From assembly GCF_003383095.1 (NCBI RefSeq), contig NZ_PSYW01000001.1:558001-622000 (forward strand): DNA of 64,000 nucleotides, read 5' to 3'. Positions 8,607 to 17,782 of the stretch are shown piece after piece. Numbering within the stretch: the stretch's first letter is position 1; every line of letters starts with the position of its first letter. The position numbers and the translations under genes were made by a program. The notes beneath the pieces were generated by a model, which ran no database searches, was not told the DNA's origin, and saw only the letters and a program-made list of their open reading frames with translations. The DNA comes from Haloferax sp. Atlit-12N (GTDB lineage Archaea; Halobacteriota; Halobacteria; Halobacteriales; Haloferacaceae).

Positions 8607-9716
8607 ATGTCGAAGGAGATCGATTACGAGACGGCGGAGGAACTACTCCGGGAGACGTGGCGCGAGGTGACTGAGAGTAGTCAGTCAGAGTACGTGGATA
8701 AAGACGAACTCAGAGATGAGATACGCCAAATTGTCTCCGCAGACAAGTATGGAACGAGAACGTTCAAGTATATCTTCGTGACGAACGTACTCTCGAAGGC
8801 GGTCAATCCTGAGGTACACACGTTAGCGCTGAAAGACAGTAGTACACTCGATGGCTCGTTTAACTCTGGAGGGTTAGCGACAGACGTCGTCACCGATTGG
8901 GAGAAGGACAATGGTGAGCGATTAGGAGGATCGAACGAACCACGGACAAATAGCGTCTACTATCGTCAGGCAGAACTCAACCGAGACTACGAGGTTCGGA
9001 ATAACGAGCTATATCAGACGCTGATCGATGTACTGCTGGAGCTCCAAGAGGGCGTCGAGAACGGGTCGATAGCACCAATCGACATGCTCCGTCAGACACT
9101 CTACGAGGTATCGAGACTCGATCCGACGACAGTCAGTTACACGAACCCACCTGATGTTCCGTATCTCGACCTCGAAGCGGTCGTTCGCGAGTACTTGACT
9201 GAATCAAGTACTGGTGAACGACTCGCGGCCGTCACCGCTGGCGTACTCGATGCCCAGTACTTCGTCGCCGATAAAGATGATGCGTATATCAAAGTTGACC
9301 ACGTGAACGTTGCCGACGAGAACTCGAACGCCGCTGGCGACATCGAAGTGTTCGCATCGGATGACGAAGCTGAGCTGCTACAAGCAGTTGAGGTGAAAGA
9401 CAAACCAGCGACGAAAGCTGACATTCAACACTCGATCACTACCGGCCGTGAACACGAGTTGGGTGAGTATCTCTTCGTGCTCGGTCAGGGGTTCAGATCG
9501 GAAGCCGAACGTAAGCGGGCCATGGCCGCAATCGAAGATGCGGAAATCGAACTCATTCTCCTCACACACGACGATCTCCTCAGTAGTCTGAAATTCCAGC
9601 GGAGAGCAGGCCGACGTCGCTTCCGAGAGTCCGTCGGAGAGTTCCTCAACGATATGCGAGCACAGGAGGATAGCAAAGCCAACTGGAAAGCAGGAATCGA
9701 ATCGTTAGCCCAATAA
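8607..9716 (+). CDS. Type II restriction endonuclease, SacI-like
   Basis: 369 residues. The N-terminal two-thirds is helical and acidic (YETAEELLRETWREVTES; YKYI-type core with FKYIFVTNVLSKAVNPEVH). The C-terminal third holds a nuclease core: GDIEVF (acidic residue), VEVKDK (E-X-K), ATKADIQHSI and YLFVLGQGF. This organisation matches, from memory, the SacI family, whose founder cuts GAGCTC; specificity here is unproven. It converges with a cytosine-5 methyltransferase starting 7 bp beyond its stop, as expected for a restriction-modification pair. GAGCTC occurs in this window (for example around 28145), so the host would need protective methylation if that were the target. Confidence 0.68.
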   Translation: MSKEIDYETAEELLRETWREVTESSQSEYVDKDELRDEIRQIVSADKYGTRTFKYIFVTNVLSKAVNPEVHTLALKDSSTLDGSFNSGGLATDVVTDWEKDNGERLGGSNEPRTNSVYYRQAELNRDYEVRNNELYQTLIDVLLELQEGVENGSIAPIDMLRQTLYEVSRLDPTTVSYTNPPDVPYLDLEAVVREYLTESSTGERLAAVTAGVLDAQYFVADKDDAYIKVDHVNVADENSNAAGDIEVFASDDEAELLQAVEVKDKPATKADIQHSITTGREHELGEYLFVLGQGFRSEAERKRAMAAIEDAEIELILLTHDDLLSSLKFQRRAGRRRFRESVGEFLNDMRAQEDSKANWKAGIESLAQ

Positions 9717-9723
9717 ACGCAGT

Positions 9724-11175
9724 CTACAGTGACACTTCCGCGTTCAGAACGGAGAGACGATCACTCTTGCTGCCGCTTGGATCTTCTTGCACGTCTTCAG
9801 TCAGCCTGATTTCGGGATCGCTATCGAGCCGTCGCCGAAGTAACTCGAGTACGTCGACAGCCTGTGCGATGCGCTTTCCACGGCCGACGATTGACACAGA
9901 TTCTCCTCGTTCGAGCTTCGGGAGAATAGATTCGACGTAGTGCCACGGGGAGTATTCAGGTGAAACAGTCACGGTCGCATCGATGTCGACCGAGGCGTTC
10001 CCACCGTCTGCACGGACGGAGGCCGATCTCTCCGTATCGCTGACAGCTGGTGTTTCGATGCCCAACTGTTCCAGCATCGCTCGAACAATCGACTCTGCAA
10101 GTCCAGGAGGGACCGAGTTTCCGATCTGTCGTTGAACCTCACGGCATGGGCCACAGATTTCGTAGTCGACCGGAATGTCCATCAAGCGCATCTCCTCCAA
10201 GAAGGAGTAGCGACGAGACCGCCAGTGGAAAGGTCCGACGTACGTTCCCGGCGAGGCTTGGAGCGTCCATGTCGGGCGGTCTGGGTCTTGTTTGAGGAGG
10301 TAGTTGTAGTGTCGCGAACGCCAGTCAAACACCTTCTCATCGAGTTCGTCATCGTCTCGCTCCACGTACTCGCCCTTCTCGGGGACGTACTTCCGCTCAG
10401 AGAAATGCTGGTAGTTGCCACCTGGCGGAACATCCTTGAGAAGGTAGCCGTACTTGCCGCCGACAGCGTTCACGTACCCACTATCAGCCGTCAACTCGGC
10501 ATCGACATCGAAGTCAGTCAGTGCTTCCTCAGCAGTCACCCACGAGGGCTTTCCAGTAATCGGGTTCTTCGCTTCGACGTGCGTCGGATCGGGGAAGTAT
10601 GGCTTCTCGTCGTCGCGAAAGCCGACGATGAAGAGTCGCTCGCGCGTTTGTGGCACCCCGTAGTCAGCGGCGTTCAGTACAGAGTGGTTGAGCGTGTACC
10701 CCGCGTCGGCAAACGCCCGCGTGATAATCTCGAAGTCATCGCCGTCGTTTGCGGACGCCAGTCCACGGACGTTCTCGAAGACGAACGCCTTCGGCTGTAT
10801 CTCCTCGAGCAGTCGAACGTACTCCTCGAACAGCAACCCACGTTCAGCGTCAGTCCCCTGTCGCATCCCCTCGTTCGATCGAGAAAACGTCTGGCATGGT
10901 GGTCCACCGACGATGAAATCGATCTCGTCGGTCCCAGCGGCTTCGAGCAATTCCTCAGCGGAGATATCGTGGATATCACCCTCAACGACCGACCAGTCGT
11001 ACTTCGCATCCGTTCCAGCAAGTCCGGCTTCGTACTCCGAACTGTTCGCTCGGAGCGACGCCGCAGCGTGTTCATCCGCATCGAGCGTTACTAATGTCTC
11101 TACCCCAGCGCGGTGGAGGCCGATATCAATCCCGCCCAGCCCAGAGAAGAGGCTAATCGCAGTAGGGCCGCTCAT
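9724..11175 (-). CDS. DNA (cytosine-5-)-methyltransferase with C-terminal Alba-like domain
   Basis: 483 residues. m5C motifs in order: I ISLFSGLGGIDIGL (7-20), IV GGPPCQTFSRSN with nucleophile Cys94, VI FENV (133-136), VIII QTRERLF (176-182), IX around 300-318, X IGNSVPPGLAESI (351-363). The catalytic domain ends near residue 370. After an acidic linker, residues 410-483 read HYVESILPKLERGESVSIVG, GRGKRIAQAVDVLELLRRRL and a final strand LSVLNAEVSL, which is the strand-helix-helix plan and Gly-Arg-Gly motif of Alba proteins. It should protect host DNA from the convergent restriction enzyme. The Alba tail could add non-specific DNA or RNA binding. This fusion is unusual in my experience. Confidence 0.9.
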   Translation of the reverse strand: MSGPTAISLFSGLGGIDIGLHRAGVETLVTLDADEHAAASLRANSSEYEAGLAGTDAKYDWSVVEGDIHDISAEELLEAAGTDEIDFIVGGPPCQTFSRSNEGMRQGTDAERGLLFEEYVRLLEEIQPKAFVFENVRGLASANDGDDFEIITRAFADAGYTLNHSVLNAADYGVPQTRERLFIVGFRDDEKPYFPDPTHVEAKNPITGKPSWVTAEEALTDFDVDAELTADSGYVNAVGGKYGYLLKDVPPGGNYQHFSERKYVPEKGEYVERDDDELDEKVFDWRSRHYNYLLKQDPDRPTWTLQASPGTYVGPFHWRSRRYSFLEEMRLMDIPVDYEICGPCREVQRQIGNSVPPGLAESIVRAMLEQLGIETPAVSDTERSASVRADGGNASVDIDATVTVSPEYSPWHYVESILPKLERGESVSIVGRGKRIAQAVDVLELLRRRLDSDPEIRLTEDVQEDPSGSKSDRLSVLNAEVSL

Positions 11176-11291: not shown

Positions 11292-11327
11292 CTATGTACA
11301 TTATGTGCAGTAGCGCTCTTATGTACA
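11292..11327 (+). promoter_or_regulatory. TATGTACATTATGTG-type site upstream of the AbrB-like gene
   Basis: CTATGTACATTATGTGCA, then CTTATGTACAG after a GTAGCG spacer, ending 23 bp upstream of the AbrB-like start. It contains the same core as the element before the restriction-enzyme gene. It sits in the divergent region shared by the methyltransferase (minus) and the AbrB-like gene (plus). Confidence 0.5.
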
Positions 11328-11577: not shown

Positions 11578-12333
11578 TCACTCGTGTAGCGGGGTCGCTG
11601 AACAGACATCAAGGTACTCGCAACGATGGCACTTGGCAGGGTTTGTCGTCGGTTCCGTAGGGCGCTCATCTCGCCAGTACCCGAGTGCCCAGTTGAGTTC
11701 GTTTAGGTACTCGATTCGGGAATAATCGAAGACGTGGTAGAACACGTTATCATCGAGTTTGTGGTCGCCGACGCCAAACGAAGGATAGTCGCTAAGAAGT
11801 TCCTGTTGGAGGACTTTAGCACGTTCGAGACCAAGGTCGCGAGAGTGGCTTAGAATCCCGATTCGGAGGTCTTCGGTGTCGAACCCAAGTCGATCAAGTA
11901 TGAACCCGTACAACCAGACCTGAATCCGCTGGTTATCGTACACTTGGCTGGGTCGAGAGGAAGTTTTTCGGTCGAAAACAACCTGTGGTTTTTGATTCTC
12001 GAAGACGATGGCGTCTGGTTTCCCGCCTAGATAGAACTCAGCGGCGTCGCCAACGAAACCAGACTCGACGATTATTTGGAGGTCACCACTCTCAATCCCC
12101 TCCCAGAGTTCATCGTCAGACACTTCCACAGCATCCTCGGCAGCTTTCTTGTGGACTTCTGTTCCTTTCGTCTTTTCTTCCGTCTCAACGTCGCCATGCT
12201 TCTCACGAAGGTCGAGGGTCTGCTCGCAGTAGAACTGTTGGCCGATTTGACTCGGATAGAGTTGCTTGTTTTTGTGTTCGACGTACTCTGTGGCAAGTTG
12301 GTCGCGTCGAGCCCGGATCTCGTTGAGTGTCAT
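11578..12333 (-). CDS. Cas4-like PD-(D/E)XK exonuclease with Fe-S cysteines
   Basis: 251 residues. RecB/Cas4-type motifs: Cys36 in FYCEQTLDLR, His61 in GTEVHKKA, Asp107 in GGKPDAIVF, Asp121-Arg-Lys123 in VVFDRKTSS, Gln138 in QVWLYG, and a C-terminal Cys cluster CHRCEYLDVC (235, 238, 244). One early plus three late cysteines is the arrangement that holds a 4Fe-4S cluster in Cas4 and AddB-type nucleases. The active-site Asp in place of Glu before the Lys is a conservative change. No CRISPR array or other cas gene is in the window, so it is a solo Cas4-like protein, here in a defense island beside a restriction system. Role unproven. Confidence 0.82.
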   Translation of the reverse strand: MTLNEIRARRDQLATEYVEHKNKQLYPSQIGQQFYCEQTLDLREKHGDVETEEKTKGTEVHKKAAEDAVEVSDDELWEGIESGDLQIIVESGFVGDAAEFYLGGKPDAIVFENQKPQVVFDRKTSSRPSQVYDNQRIQVWLYGFILDRLGFDTEDLRIGILSHSRDLGLERAKVLQQELLSDYPSFGVGDHKLDDNVFYHVFDYSRIEYLNELNWALGYWRDERPTEPTTNPAKCHRCEYLDVCSATPLHE

Positions 12334-12590: not shown

Positions 12591-13565
12591 TTACATTGAT
12601 ATTGTATCAATATACAAACTATCAATGCCTTCAGAGTATGAGTCGTAATTGTACTCTCCAGGAACTGAATAACTCATCTGCACCTCAAAAAGACTCCTTG
12701 ACGCCTCCCATGCACCAATTGTGGACAGTTTAGTACTTTGAGGAGCGACGACGACATTTCGTTTAGATATTCGGTCTTGGATGATGTCACTTACAATCTC
12801 TCTAGTGCCATCAATTGATGCTGCTGGGAATTGAAACGTATCTACCTCTGGCTGTGCTAAAATCATGTCCTGTTCATTTTCATTTCTATCTAGGAAATCT
12901 GGATTGGTTGGTGGGTCGCCTATTCCAAGCATCACCTCGGATGCCTCAAACTCTTCAATTATCTTTTCAGCCCGATTACTCTCAAACCCAGATAAAAGAA
13001 CTAACGTCGTGGGACGTGTTGATTGATGTATTCCTGCCTGGCCAAGGATATTCCTAATATTTCTATGCCCCCTACTCAGCCATTCACCATGGCTCTTTGG
13101 TGACACATAAAATACATTTGGATCTTGGGGCTCAAATCGATAATAGAGCAGATTTAGGAGAATTAGAAGAGTCTCTTTACTGAAACACGTTGAGTCAATA
13201 CTAACTCGGAGAGAGTTGTCTGACTCAAAACCGAGATCTGCCATTTCATTCTCAAATGCCTGAAGCTGTTTGCCAGAATTCAACCAACTTCCTTTAGCTA
13301 CTCGAACCTCATCACAGTAGTCTTCAAGCTCATTTTTTAATGACTTTAGGTTGTCTTTTGTCGACTCTACACCGTAATCAGATAGCAACTCCTCATTCAC
13401 ATACACAATACCGACTTTAGCGCGGTACCCGGTTGAAAGAGCATCCACTACTGCTGTTGCACGCGGTTCGAAACCAGCGCTCACAATGAAGAGGTCGTCC
13501 TTTTCAGTATCTTGAAGTAACCCTCCTTTGGACCTGAACTCTCTATAGCTGAATTTCTTGGTCAT
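12591..13565 (-). CDS. Third protein of a coupled HD/AAA operon, unknown family, internally repeated
   Basis: 324 residues, low-GC gene. Two similar motifs head alternating strand-helix halves: FIVSAGFEPRATAVVD (about residues 26-41) and LVLLSGFESNRAEKIIE (about 188-204). Between them lies SLRVSIDSTCFSKETLLILL. This suggests a duplicated Rossmann-like or flavodoxin-like fold with a conserved Gly-Phe-Glu-X-Arg loop. No catalytic motif I can name is present. Its ATG overlaps the ATPase stop as TAATG, so it is translationally coupled and probably a fixed partner. By analogy with three-gene defense operons it could be sensor or effector; that is speculation. Confidence 0.75.
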   Translation of the reverse strand: MTKKFSYREFRSKGGLLQDTEKDDLFIVSAGFEPRATAVVDALSTGYRAKVGIVYVNEELLSDYGVESTKDNLKSLKNELEDYCDEVRVAKGSWLNSGKQLQAFENEMADLGFESDNSLRVSIDSTCFSKETLLILLNLLYYRFEPQDPNVFYVSPKSHGEWLSRGHRNIRNILGQAGIHQSTRPTTLVLLSGFESNRAEKIIEEFEASEVMLGIGDPPTNPDFLDRNENEQDMILAQPEVDTFQFPAASIDGTREIVSDIIQDRISKRNVVVAPQSTKLSTIGAWEASRSLFEVQMSYSVPGEYNYDSYSEGIDSLYIDTISM

Positions 13566-15355
13566 TAGTTGAAATCCTCCAGCCCACTTTGTCTTTCATC
13601 ATCACCTAGGACCCTGCGAACAAATTCCTGTGGGTCATTGCAACCCTCTTCTAGTTGGCGTTGTGTGAGTCTGATCCTCCCTTGGAACCCTGTTGGGTCA
13701 ATTTTAAATTGTGGGGCAAGCCTCCGATTCAAGATATACCAGTCTTCTCTTCCCCCTCCATCTTTACTACTGTATGTATCCTTTTGGAAATATTGCATAG
13801 CCCGACCAAGCTCAAGTACTGATTTCACTTCGGAGTCCTCATCAATCTCTTCTCGGATAGTAAACGAAAATATCCGTGGCTCGCGTGAATCTTTGTCATG
13901 GAGGCGGTTATAGAATAGTTGACCGAGAGATTTAACTAACGTAATTAATTTGTCAAGGTGACTCCGTCGCTCTGGTTTCAGGTCTTTCTTCATCTTCTCA
14001 GGCTCACCAATCAACAAGTCTCGGGAATACTCTCGCAATATTTTATCTTGAATTCTGGGAGGTATCTCTTCCATCTCATCTACATCCACTCCATCGCTTT
14101 TCAGTTCTTCAACCATTAGGAAGCATGGATCGAGGAAATACCGTATTCTCCCAGAAGAGATATGGACTAAATTTTCGAAGCCTGCGTAACTTTTTCTATT
14201 TTTTCTATCTGCTAATTCCTGGAACAGTCTTGCATTTGCATATCTGTTAATAAAGTCGGAGCGTTCTCCCGGTTCATCTTCTTCAACCCATTCTTCTGCT
14301 ACTTGTTCTTTAATTTCTTCAAGTAATTCTTGCTCAAACTCGTTTTTAGGGAGAAATTCCTCGATGTTGTTTGCTGGAATTTCTGATAACTCTAGTCTTT
14401 TGTTCGCAATTTCGCGGACTTTTTGAGCGTAGTTGCTATCATTCCTAGTATAAATCTCATCAATCGAAACCTCTGTGTAGTCGTGCGGTATCTCAATTCT
14501 TCCGCGACCTACCGTGCTGAATGTTTCATATCTTTCCTTACTAGATGAAACCTTGACGCAAACTGTTCCCTGATCCCGGTTCGCAATCCACGTGTTAACA
14601 ACTTGTTGTTGGCGCTTCGTCAAATGGAATGCATCATCAAGCAGGATATATATCGGCACATTTGGCTGCTGTAGCAGATTTTGGACATTTGAAATTAGTG
14701 GCAAGAGGAAATCGTGGTAACCGCTTGTTGCTCCTTGATAGCGAGCGTCTTCTGAGAATGGGACTTTGTTCAGGTAATGAGTGACTCTCCGCTTTTCTTC
14801 TTCAAACAACTTGTTTAGCCATTTAAGTGGAGAATCGGACTTGTTGTGGTAATTATCTGCTTGGTTTTTTGACGCTGCAATTGAGGCGGTATCAAACAAG
14901 TTTGCAGCACGTTCTGCAAATTCTACCTTGTCATCTATATTGAAATAATCCTCAGGAAACTGTGATGAAAGTACAGATGTAACCTCTTCTGCTATTGATA
15001 AGTTTAGGAGGTGCTCAGTAATTACACGTGCTTCCGCGTTGCTCAGTAGGTTCAACTCTTCTTTATCAATTTCACCTTTACTACAAGGTGTATAAACACC
15101 GACATATGGGTCGTTCTTGGAGAAGAATTCTTCAACTCCTCCAGCTTCGATAAACTGACATTGTGGTTCCATATACCGAAGAATGAAACTCTTCCCTGAT
15201 CCTCTTGAGCCCCATAAGAAGGAGTGCTTCTGCTGGTTAATTGCTGAGAAGCGTGTGTGTTTCTTAACAAATAGATCGACAATTGTTTCTGGTGAGACTT
15301 GATCTAAGGCATCAGGACTGTGGACAGTAAACGGGTTTTCTGAGATGTTAATCAT
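13565..15355 (-). CDS. AAA/P-loop ATPase of the ORC-CDC6-like type
   Basis: 596 residues. It begins MINISENPFTVHSPDAL, then Walker A WGSRGSGKSFILRYM (about residues 48-62) and Walker B PIYILLDDAFHL (about 245-256), followed by a sensor-like VSSSKERYETF. The C-terminal half is long, charged and helical, with a winged-helix-like end (FQGRIRLTQRQLEEG). The NPF start and RGSGKS loop match what I recall as ORC-CDC6-type ATPases in predicted conflict systems, distinct from replication Orc1. Both junctions are TAATG overlaps, with the HD gene upstream and the unknown gene downstream. AT-rich relative to chromosomal neighbours. Probably the motor or switch of the three-gene system. Confidence 0.82.
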   Translation of the reverse strand: MINISENPFTVHSPDALDQVSPETIVDLFVKKHTRFSAINQQKHSFLWGSRGSGKSFILRYMEPQCQFIEAGGVEEFFSKNDPYVGVYTPCSKGEIDKEELNLLSNAEARVITEHLLNLSIAEEVTSVLSSQFPEDYFNIDDKVEFAERAANLFDTASIAASKNQADNYHNKSDSPLKWLNKLFEEEKRRVTHYLNKVPFSEDARYQGATSGYHDFLLPLISNVQNLLQQPNVPIYILLDDAFHLTKRQQQVVNTWIANRDQGTVCVKVSSSKERYETFSTVGRGRIEIPHDYTEVSIDEIYTRNDSNYAQKVREIANKRLELSEIPANNIEEFLPKNEFEQELLEEIKEQVAEEWVEEDEPGERSDFINRYANARLFQELADRKNRKSYAGFENLVHISSGRIRYFLDPCFLMVEELKSDGVDVDEMEEIPPRIQDKILREYSRDLLIGEPEKMKKDLKPERRSHLDKLITLVKSLGQLFYNRLHDKDSREPRIFSFTIREEIDEDSEVKSVLELGRAMQYFQKDTYSSKDGGGREDWYILNRRLAPQFKIDPTGFQGRIRLTQRQLEEGCNDPQEFVRRVLGDDERQSGLEDFN

Positions 15356-16383
15356 TATTTCTCGACCGCCTCAAGTTTTTCCGGGTTAAGATTTTGATTC
15401 TTTTCAAAGAACTTGTCATAGATCTCTACGTTAGGATATCCATCTGCCCCCGCGAGACCTGACACACCGAGTGTTTCATTTATTTCTTCTTCAATTTCAC
15501 CCACTTCACCCATTAAACTCAGCCTCACGTGCATATCTCTTATATCAACGAACTCCCTGAACTCGGAAGCGCAGTACACTTTCTCGTTGTTCATTTTCTC
15601 AAGCCGACATATTATGTATTCTATGAGGGTGATCTCCCCATCTGTGGCTCGAGATTGGTACTCGTCCGGAACAGGGAACCGTTTCATTGCACTTTCCTCT
15701 GTCAATTCAATATTGACACTAACTGTGTTCCGTCTCGGCTTGGGGACAATACCCGTGATCGAGTCTGCAAATCGCCAATATATTTCACTTTCTTCGGGTA
15801 CGTTCTCCCAAATAGCCCTACCCGCACTTACCCTCTCTTGGTTCTCAGAGATTTCGTCAGCAAATCTCAACAATGCAGACAATGATCTGGATTTTACAGT
15901 AAACGACTCATGTCCGATCGTGACTTCGGTCTTCGTTCGTGGTATCTCTAGCCCATTCTTTCCGTCCCCGGTATGTGCTTTGACGATTCGGCTGACGACA
16001 CTTTGTATACCTGTATTTGGGAAGGCGAGATCTTGGATCTCCTTGGCGATTCTCGCGGTTTCATCTTCATGCCCTGCCCGTTGGCTTACCATTCCCACGT
16101 CATGCCAAATGGTGGCAGTAAGTAGAAGATACATATCCATATAGCTAAGAGATCCGTACTCATCTGATTCCATTTCCTCACTTAGGAGGCAATTCAATTG
16201 GTTGATTACGGATTTAACATGCTTCTCCCCATGGTCTGTAAACCACTGACAATTATTGAGCACCCACGGGTAGTACTGTCGCTCTAGATATTTCTTCACA
16301 TTTCTGTAATTGTGCAGTAGTGTGTCAGCAGACTCGCTGCCGTCATCAGCAATTGATTCCAATGCTTCCTCAAGTGTTGGCAT
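15355..16383 (-). CDS. HD-domain protein, first gene of the coupled operon
   Basis: 342 residues. HD-superfamily metal ligands are visible: HGEKHVKSVI (His51, His55), WHDVGM (His94-Asp95) and GHEDETARI (His105), with a later LRFADEISENQ that supplies the usual distal Asp. HD enzymes hydrolyse phosphate esters, for example dNTPs, cyclic nucleotides or nucleic acid. The remaining ~150 residues form a mixed domain without motifs I know. I recall similar HD proteins paired with ORC-CDC6-like ATPases. The gene is divergent from a cytosine methyltransferase across a 148-bp promoter region with a strong palindrome. Substrate unknown. Confidence 0.82.
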   Translation of the reverse strand: MPTLEEALESIADDGSESADTLLHNYRNVKKYLERQYYPWVLNNCQWFTDHGEKHVKSVINQLNCLLSEEMESDEYGSLSYMDMYLLLTATIWHDVGMVSQRAGHEDETARIAKEIQDLAFPNTGIQSVVSRIVKAHTGDGKNGLEIPRTKTEVTIGHESFTVKSRSLSALLRFADEISENQERVSAGRAIWENVPEESEIYWRFADSITGIVPKPRRNTVSVNIELTEESAMKRFPVPDEYQSRATDGEITLIEYIICRLEKMNNEKVYCASEFREFVDIRDMHVRLSLMGEVGEIEEEINETLGVSGLAGADGYPNVEIYDKFFEKNQNLNPEKLEAVEK

Positions 16384-16531: not shown

Positions 16532-17782
16532 ATGAATTCGGGTTGCAAACTGACTGCTTTAGATCTATTTTGCGGTGCAGGGGGACTCAGCTTTGGTCTG
16601 GAGCAAGCAGGTATCGAGGTTGTTGCTGGTGTTGATGCTGACCACCACTCCATCTCAACCTACTCTTACAATCATGATGGCAGAGGCGTCTGTCTTGACC
16701 TCACCAGCTCCAACATACATGAAAAAATATCAGAAGAAATTCGAGGAAACGGATTTGACCCAGAAGATATTGATATAGTGGCTGGTGGGCCTCCCTGTAA
16801 GGGCTTCTCGAAAGCGAATTCGATCACACAAAACCGGGATAATCCTTTGAATGTTCTCCCAGAACTGTTTCTTGAGATTGCTGAAGAGTTCAGTCCTCGC
16901 GGAATCATATTAGAAAACGTCCCTCCACTTCTGACTATGGAAGAGGGACAATATAAGGATAGTATCCTGGACACTCTCCAAGACTGGGGATTCCATCACC
17001 GCTTTGGGGTTCTCCATGCTGATGAATATGGTGTACCACAATTACGACGTCGAGTTTTCTTCATAGCCTCTTCAGAAGGACGCCCTAATTTTCCTCAGAC
17101 TACACACAACCCCGGGGCTAGAGAGTATGAAGAGTTCGAACATGATCCACACTTAGATGATCCAGTCACGGTTCGGGATGCTATATACGATCTTCCACGA
17201 CTCCCTAAAGGTGGAGGCGGTAGCGAAGTAATGGAATATGACCCACCTGTTGAGTATCTCACAGAGTATGTTAGAAGCATGCGGTCCCAGATAGAAGACT
17301 CCGTGGTCTACAATCACCGAACAACAGTAAATAGAGAGTCAACATATCGCCGATTCAAGTATATTAGTCAAGGTGGGAATTGGGAGGATATCCCCGCAGA
17401 GTTGATGTCAAATTATAAGAATAGAAGTCAAACGCATGACCACATATATCGCAGATTGAAGCCAGACATGCCGGCATATACCGTTGCAAACTTTCGAAAG
17501 CAGATGATGGTTCATCCACTAAAGGAATCCCCCGGTGAAGAAAATACTGGTGACCAAGACCGGCTACTGTCTGTCCGTGAGGCTGCACGGCTTCAGTCTT
17601 TCCCAGACCATTACCGATTCGTCGGTGAATCGTTCAATGCCCGTCAACAAATGGTTGGCAACGCGGTTCCAGTCAGGTTAGCAAAAGCTGTTGGTGGAGC
17701 TATGGTTGATGTTTTAAATGACAGCTCTAGCTCTTCACCCATCTCTTCAGGTGCAATGTCGGGCGAGGCCCAAGACGACTAG
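16532..17782 (+). CDS. DNA (cytosine-5-)-methyltransferase
   Basis: 416 residues. Motifs: I ALDLFCGAGGLSFGLEQAG, IV GGPPCKGFSKAN with nucleophile Cys89, VI LENV (127-130), VIII QLRRRVF (170-176), and motif X GNAVPVRLAKAV near residue 375. The target-recognition region (about 205-340) is rich in basic and aromatic residues. Low-GC like the HD/AAA operon from which it diverges, so they were probably acquired together. No classical restriction endonuclease adjoins, so its partner may be the three-gene operon. Its recognition sequence cannot be read. The Ser-rich tail is unconserved-looking. Confidence 0.88.
   Translation: MNSGCKLTALDLFCGAGGLSFGLEQAGIEVVAGVDADHHSISTYSYNHDGRGVCLDLTSSNIHEKISEEIRGNGFDPEDIDIVAGGPPCKGFSKANSITQNRDNPLNVLPELFLEIAEEFSPRGIILENVPPLLTMEEGQYKDSILDTLQDWGFHHRFGVLHADEYGVPQLRRRVFFIASSEGRPNFPQTTHNPGAREYEEFEHDPHLDDPVTVRDAIYDLPRLPKGGGGSEVMEYDPPVEYLTEYVRSMRSQIEDSVVYNHRTTVNRESTYRRFKYISQGGNWEDIPAELMSNYKNRSQTHDHIYRRLKPDMPAYTVANFRKQMMVHPLKESPGEENTGDQDRLLSVREAARLQSFPDHYRFVGESFNARQQMVGNAVPVRLAKAVGGAMVDVLNDSSSSSPISSGAMSGEAQDD

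Follow-up and report, generated by a model that had tools for sequence, protein, structure and literature searches.

A cytosine-5 DNA methyltransferase fused to an Alba domain in a haloarchaeal SacI-family restriction-modification cassette

In the present study, we analysed a 64,000-nucleotide stretch of DNA from Haloferax sp. Atlit-12N (the window) and confirmed that it encodes a C5-cytosine (m5C) DNA methyltransferase fused to a C-terminal Alba domain. The open reading frame (9724-11175, 483 aa) runs without interruption on the minus strand, and the features of the locus are listed in Table 1. A preliminary description had read this frame as an m5C methyltransferase with an Alba-like tail, and profile searches bore out both parts. 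PF00145 covered residues 6-368 with an E-value of 2e-60 and 205 bits (cut-off 22), and its domain contained the motifs FSGLGG (residue 10), PPCQ (92), FENV (133), QTRERL (176) and IGNSVPP (351). The protein is a C5-cytosine DNA methyltransferase with a full-length domain, in which the catalytic PC, ENV and QxRxR motifs are intact. The full-length structure model revealed two domains parted by a low-confidence linker, as expected of a tethered module. Homologues with 79% and 72% identity carried the same tail in other genera, indicating that the fusion was not a sequencing artefact.

Table 1. Features of the methyltransferase-Alba locus, with positions in the window.
Feature	Position	Strand	Remarks
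m5C DNA methyltransferase with C-terminal Alba domain, 483 aa	9724..11175	-	Modification gene of the SacI-family type II restriction-modification system
DNA_methylase domain (PF00145), aa 6-368	10072..11160	-	Pfam profile match
Low-confidence linker between methyltransferase and Alba domains, aa 379-399	9979..10041	-	pLDDT <50 at 379-398
Alba domain, aa 400-483, predicted b1-a1-b2-a2-b3-b4	9727..9978	-	Profile and predicted fold
SacI-family restriction endonuclease (PF09566)	8607..9716	+	E 9.6e-32; convergent with the methyltransferase gene
MazE/AbrB-like swapped-hairpin protein, 60 aa	11350..11532	+	PF04014 7.5e-5, slightly below cut-off; divergent from the methyltransferase gene
Palindrome TGTACATTATGTGCA	11295..11309		Between the MazE/AbrB-like and methyltransferase genes; candidate operator

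The Pfam Alba profile, PF01918, matched residues 413-450. The whole protein scored 24.4 bits (E 2.6e-5), just below the 25-bit cut-off, and the tail alone scored 27.9 bits (E 2e-6), above it. The NCBIfam Alba profile TIGR00285 gave 26.7 bits (E 4e-6), which did not reach its equivalog cut-off of 88.25 bits. The closest sequence relatives of the tail in the PDB were all Alba, the best being 1nh9 (E 2e-5). An HMM of 31 free Albas scored the window tail at 26.3 bits and the tails of its two closest relatives at 32.3 and 17.7 bits; 500 shuffles of each tail and the reversals reached at most 7.6 bits, indicating that the Alba match was more than chance. A profile-profile comparison of the fusion tails with free Albas yielded 96.6% over 87 columns. 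On sequence grounds, the tail qualifies as an Alba domain, but the free chromatin protein is not its orthologue. An AlphaFold2 model of the tail, whose alignment held three sequences (the tail and two relatives) and no free Alba, the Haladaptatus plasmid tail being left out, gave the order b1-a1-b2-a2-b3-b4 with only moderate confidence (pLDDT 74, pTM 0.64). Foldseek comparison of this model with the PDB returned 21 matches with E <=0.001, every one of which was an Alba; plant Alba, Rpp20/Rpp25, SpoVS and IF3-like folds came next. The predicted structure of the tail has the b1-a1-b2-a2-b3-b4 fold of the Alba superfamily. Profile and structure prediction both upheld the preliminary reading of the tail.

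The fusion gene belongs to a type II restriction-modification system of the SacI family, as a PF09566 endonuclease gene adjoins it. The same fusion, for which the preliminary description had proposed a taxonomic survey among SacI-like systems, was found in two other haloarchaea. In one of them (G039), the methyltransferase was 79% identical to that of the window; the other, on a Haladaptatus plasmid, was 72% identical, annotated 'dcm', and adjoined a 'restriction endonuclease, SacI family'. The three intact cassettes came from three different genera, each fusion facing a SacI-type endonuclease, and all three had the same order of a small MazE/AbrB-like gene, the divergent methyltransferase-Alba gene and the convergent endonuclease gene. 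The endonucleases beside the other two fusions were 79% and 74% identical to that of the window, and the methyltransferase and endonuclease identities ran in parallel (79/79% and 72/74%). Going by the family name, GAGCTC would be the target of the cassette. The palindrome TGTACATTATGTACA, lying between the small gene and the methyltransferase gene, was perfect in the other two loci and had one mismatch in the window copy at 11295-11309; the chance expectation of such a palindrome was 0.01 per 64 kb. The palindrome may be regarded as a candidate operator and the MazE/AbrB-like gene as a candidate controller of the restriction-modification system, possibly equivalent in archaea to the controller proteins known from bacterial systems.

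Several neighbouring genes were recorded. A stand-alone PD-(D/E)XK nuclease of the Cas4/Exo5 type (251 aa) was located at 11578-12333, and a second m5C methyltransferase (416 aa), which had no Alba tail, at 16532-17782, about 5 kb from the fusion. Three genes on the minus strand at 12591-16383 encoded a CARF6-like protein (PADLOC 6e-70), an ORC-CDC6-like ATPase (PF24389, 7e-95) and an HD-CE protein (PF24391, 6e-17), and this group has the appearance of a candidate defence module in its own right, adjoining the cassette. A GIY-YIG nuclease-like gene (L107:10689-11117 and L108:7562-8017, 83% identical) adjoined two of the three cassettes, not on the same side in each, and is possibly a mobility partner. 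Long AAA/helicase-type proteins of 1414 and about 1585 aa were found upstream of the methyltransferase in Haladaptatus (L107:3153-7394) and Halovenus (L109:10070-14824); they were homologous to each other (27% over 487 residues, E 1e-47), and no counterpart was found in the window.

Across 391 Halobacteria genomes, PF01918 was present in five and above the cut-off in three, namely the window fusion, the second fusion and one free Alba (G021). The further matches (L004 and L005) fell below threshold, one of them running across a stop codon, and were disregarded. The window fusion was the sole Alba match in its own genome (99.9% complete), and a free Alba was not found there. The class Halobacteria is almost devoid of free Alba; over the whole phylum, Alba was present in 197 of 295 genomes, and the listed matches from outside Halobacteria lay in open frames about as long as a normal Alba or somewhat longer. 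The G021 protein (L002), the single free-standing Alba in the 391 genomes, was strongly acidic and, of the free Albas, scored highest against the fusion tails (41 bits).

A fourth relative (G301, apparently Halovenus aranensis) had a methyltransferase with 45-49% identity, and no SacI-type endonuclease was found in the 18 kb of its locus. A tree of 85 methyltransferase domains grouped these four proteins in one clade (100/99), which is most simply explained by a single gain; the tree has long branches, so that the wider placement of the clade is unsure. The fusion probably arose once and was then maintained. No further fusion was found in 170, 26 and 146 genomes of three families or in the viral contigs and phage records searched, and no Alba tail was found in the other methyltransferases inspected among the matches listed, which were mostly generic m5C methyltransferases. 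The Halovenus tail scored 6.3 bits against the Alba profile, within the shuffle range, and 23.9 bits against the other fusion tails, the shuffles reaching at most 6.2. These scores point to a decayed tail, in which Alba is no longer recognisable by profile and kinship to the other tails remains. It might be argued from this loss of recognition that the tail in general is a decaying relic without present function. However, the other two intact cassettes have tails 67% and 53% identical to the window tail, with the fold elements kept, though the whole enzymes had diverged by 21-28%, and we consider a relic very doubtful.

The residues of the tail were compared with those of Alba, numbered as in Sso10b. 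In the profile alignment with free Albas, K16, K17, Y22, R42 and R44 corresponded to E407, Y408, Y413, R432 and K434. None of the four tails had a lysine at the position of the conserved K17 or at the neighbouring K16 position, the Y22 position was Q in the Haladaptatus relative, and the hydrophobic L24 of the Alba dimer-dimer patch was replaced by E415 in the window tail. R432-G433-K434, the equivalent of R42-G43-R44, was retained in all three intact cassettes, where another basic residue, R435, stands beside it. The Halovenus tail had lost both the beta1-alpha1 lysines and the RGK motif. DVLEL of helix a2 was identical in all four proteins. Haloarchaeal proteins are generally acidic, and the window tail was net acidic (15 D+E against 11 K+R). 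Previous studies have reported that K16, K17, Y22, R42 and R44 of Alba contact nucleic acid, with Y22, R42 and R44 among the residues that bind RNA (PMC7498313), that R42-G43-R44 bind nucleic acid (PMC7498313; Gly43: PMC11621453), and that b2, a2 and b4 are the most conserved elements across Albas, chiefly for dimerisation (PMC11621453). With the first loop lost, the RGK loop retained and the dimer helix still present, we would favour a module for dimerisation that keeps some residual contact with nucleic acid over a chromatin anchor; the missing RGK motif of Halovenus indicates that nucleic-acid contact is not required in every member.

The preliminary description had suggested that the tail either couples modification to nucleoid DNA or dimerises the enzyme. 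Alba serves many archaea as a nucleoid protein (PMC7613761), which would be consistent with targeting of the enzyme to chromatin. The genome has no free Alba partner, the class nearly lacks Alba and the beta1-alpha1 lysines are gone; nucleoid coupling is therefore not favoured, and we regard it as highly improbable. The dimerising enzyme appears to be the proposal that fits best. We lean, by a little better than an even chance, towards the tail being a flexibly tethered dimerisation and DNA-clamp module of the SacI-family methyltransferase. An ancestral m5C methyltransferase would have gained the Alba domain, most simply once, and retained it. The tail would pair two methyltransferases, and the R432-G433-K434 loop would add weak nucleic-acid affinity, which may help the paired enzyme to act on both strands of a palindromic site or to stay DNA-bound in the high-salt cytoplasm. 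The methyltransferase would protect host DNA from the restriction enzyme of its own cassette, under the presumed control of the small divergent MazE/AbrB-like gene. The cassette is patchy in haloarchaea, once on a plasmid, and would probably move horizontally. Against this proposal, helix a2 could be conserved for the sake of the fold and not of dimerisation; the replaced lysines, E415, the acidic charge, the Halovenus relative without an RGK motif and the moderate confidence of the tail model also weigh against it.

Alternatively, the tail might act chiefly by non-specific DNA binding that lifts affinity or processivity at high salt, dimerisation being incidental. The intact cassettes retain the RGK loop together with R435. 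Added DNA-binding modules can confer salt resistance, topoisomerase V with its helix-hairpin-helix repeats being an example (PMC4200833). The replacement of both beta1-alpha1 lysine positions, the net acidic tail and the loss of RGK in Halovenus argue against it, and we consider it unlikely. Some m5C methyltransferases have regulatory N-terminal domains, and the tail could also bind RNA or the leader of the methyltransferase itself, regulating expression or activity. Y413, R432 and K434 match the RNA-binding Y22, R42 and R44 of Alba (PMC7498313), and the leader upstream of the gene was partly conserved. However, no RNA target was found, Y22 was not kept in the Haladaptatus relative, and a separate MazE/AbrB-like gene with a palindrome already offers a controller and an operator, making this role quite improbable. 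In a broader and tentative interpretation, which we hold to be possible but doubtful, Alba was lost from haloarchaeal nucleoids and survives as an oligomerisation and nucleic-acid-sensing domain controlling the methylation of a mobile restriction-modification enzyme.

The preliminary description knew of no account of this fusion, and no earlier description was found in our literature search. The main text of a 2024 survey of 15,161 Alba proteins, which lists other co-occurring domains, contained no methyltransferase, methylase or restriction term, and Alba went unmentioned in two surveys of restriction-modification in haloarchaea and archaea. The architecture is undescribed within the searched open-access literature, which does not prove it new. 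The fusion represents the recruitment of a chromatin protein fold into DNA defence in a lineage otherwise nearly without Alba, and is a system, small and open to testing, in which the contribution of an Alba domain away from chromatin can be studied.

Compared with known systems, long bacterial and haloarchaeal m5C methyltransferases (about 600-730 aa) were about 36-47% identical to the fusion over the methyltransferase domain and formed separate groups in the tree. Their own C-terminal extensions, of roughly 235-315 residues, were unlike Alba in length and sequence on inspection, and the one scanned carried PF00145 only; the tail as a common m5C extension was thus rejected. The tail shares with archaeal Alba/Sac10b (PF01918, TIGR00285) the fold order, the RG(K/R)xI loop and the helix DVxEl, and these proteins are its top PDB matches by sequence and fold. 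It differs from them in being fused to an enzyme, in the replacement of the beta1-alpha1 lysines (E407, Y408) and in its net acidic charge. As in the SacI type II system, a PF09566 endonuclease gene adjoins a DNA methyltransferase gene, and we see in the fusion a variation on type II restriction-modification and not a system of a new kind. In contrast, the six further haloarchaeal loci of the SacI family that were read and whose endonuclease gene is intact (L006-L011, endonucleases 39-45% identical to that of the window) had a D12-class methyltransferase gene of the adenine N6 type preceding the endonuclease instead of m5C-Alba, an assignment made by reading, with a profile scan of one locus. 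Two methyltransferase types that are unrelated to each other thus accompany a single endonuclease family.
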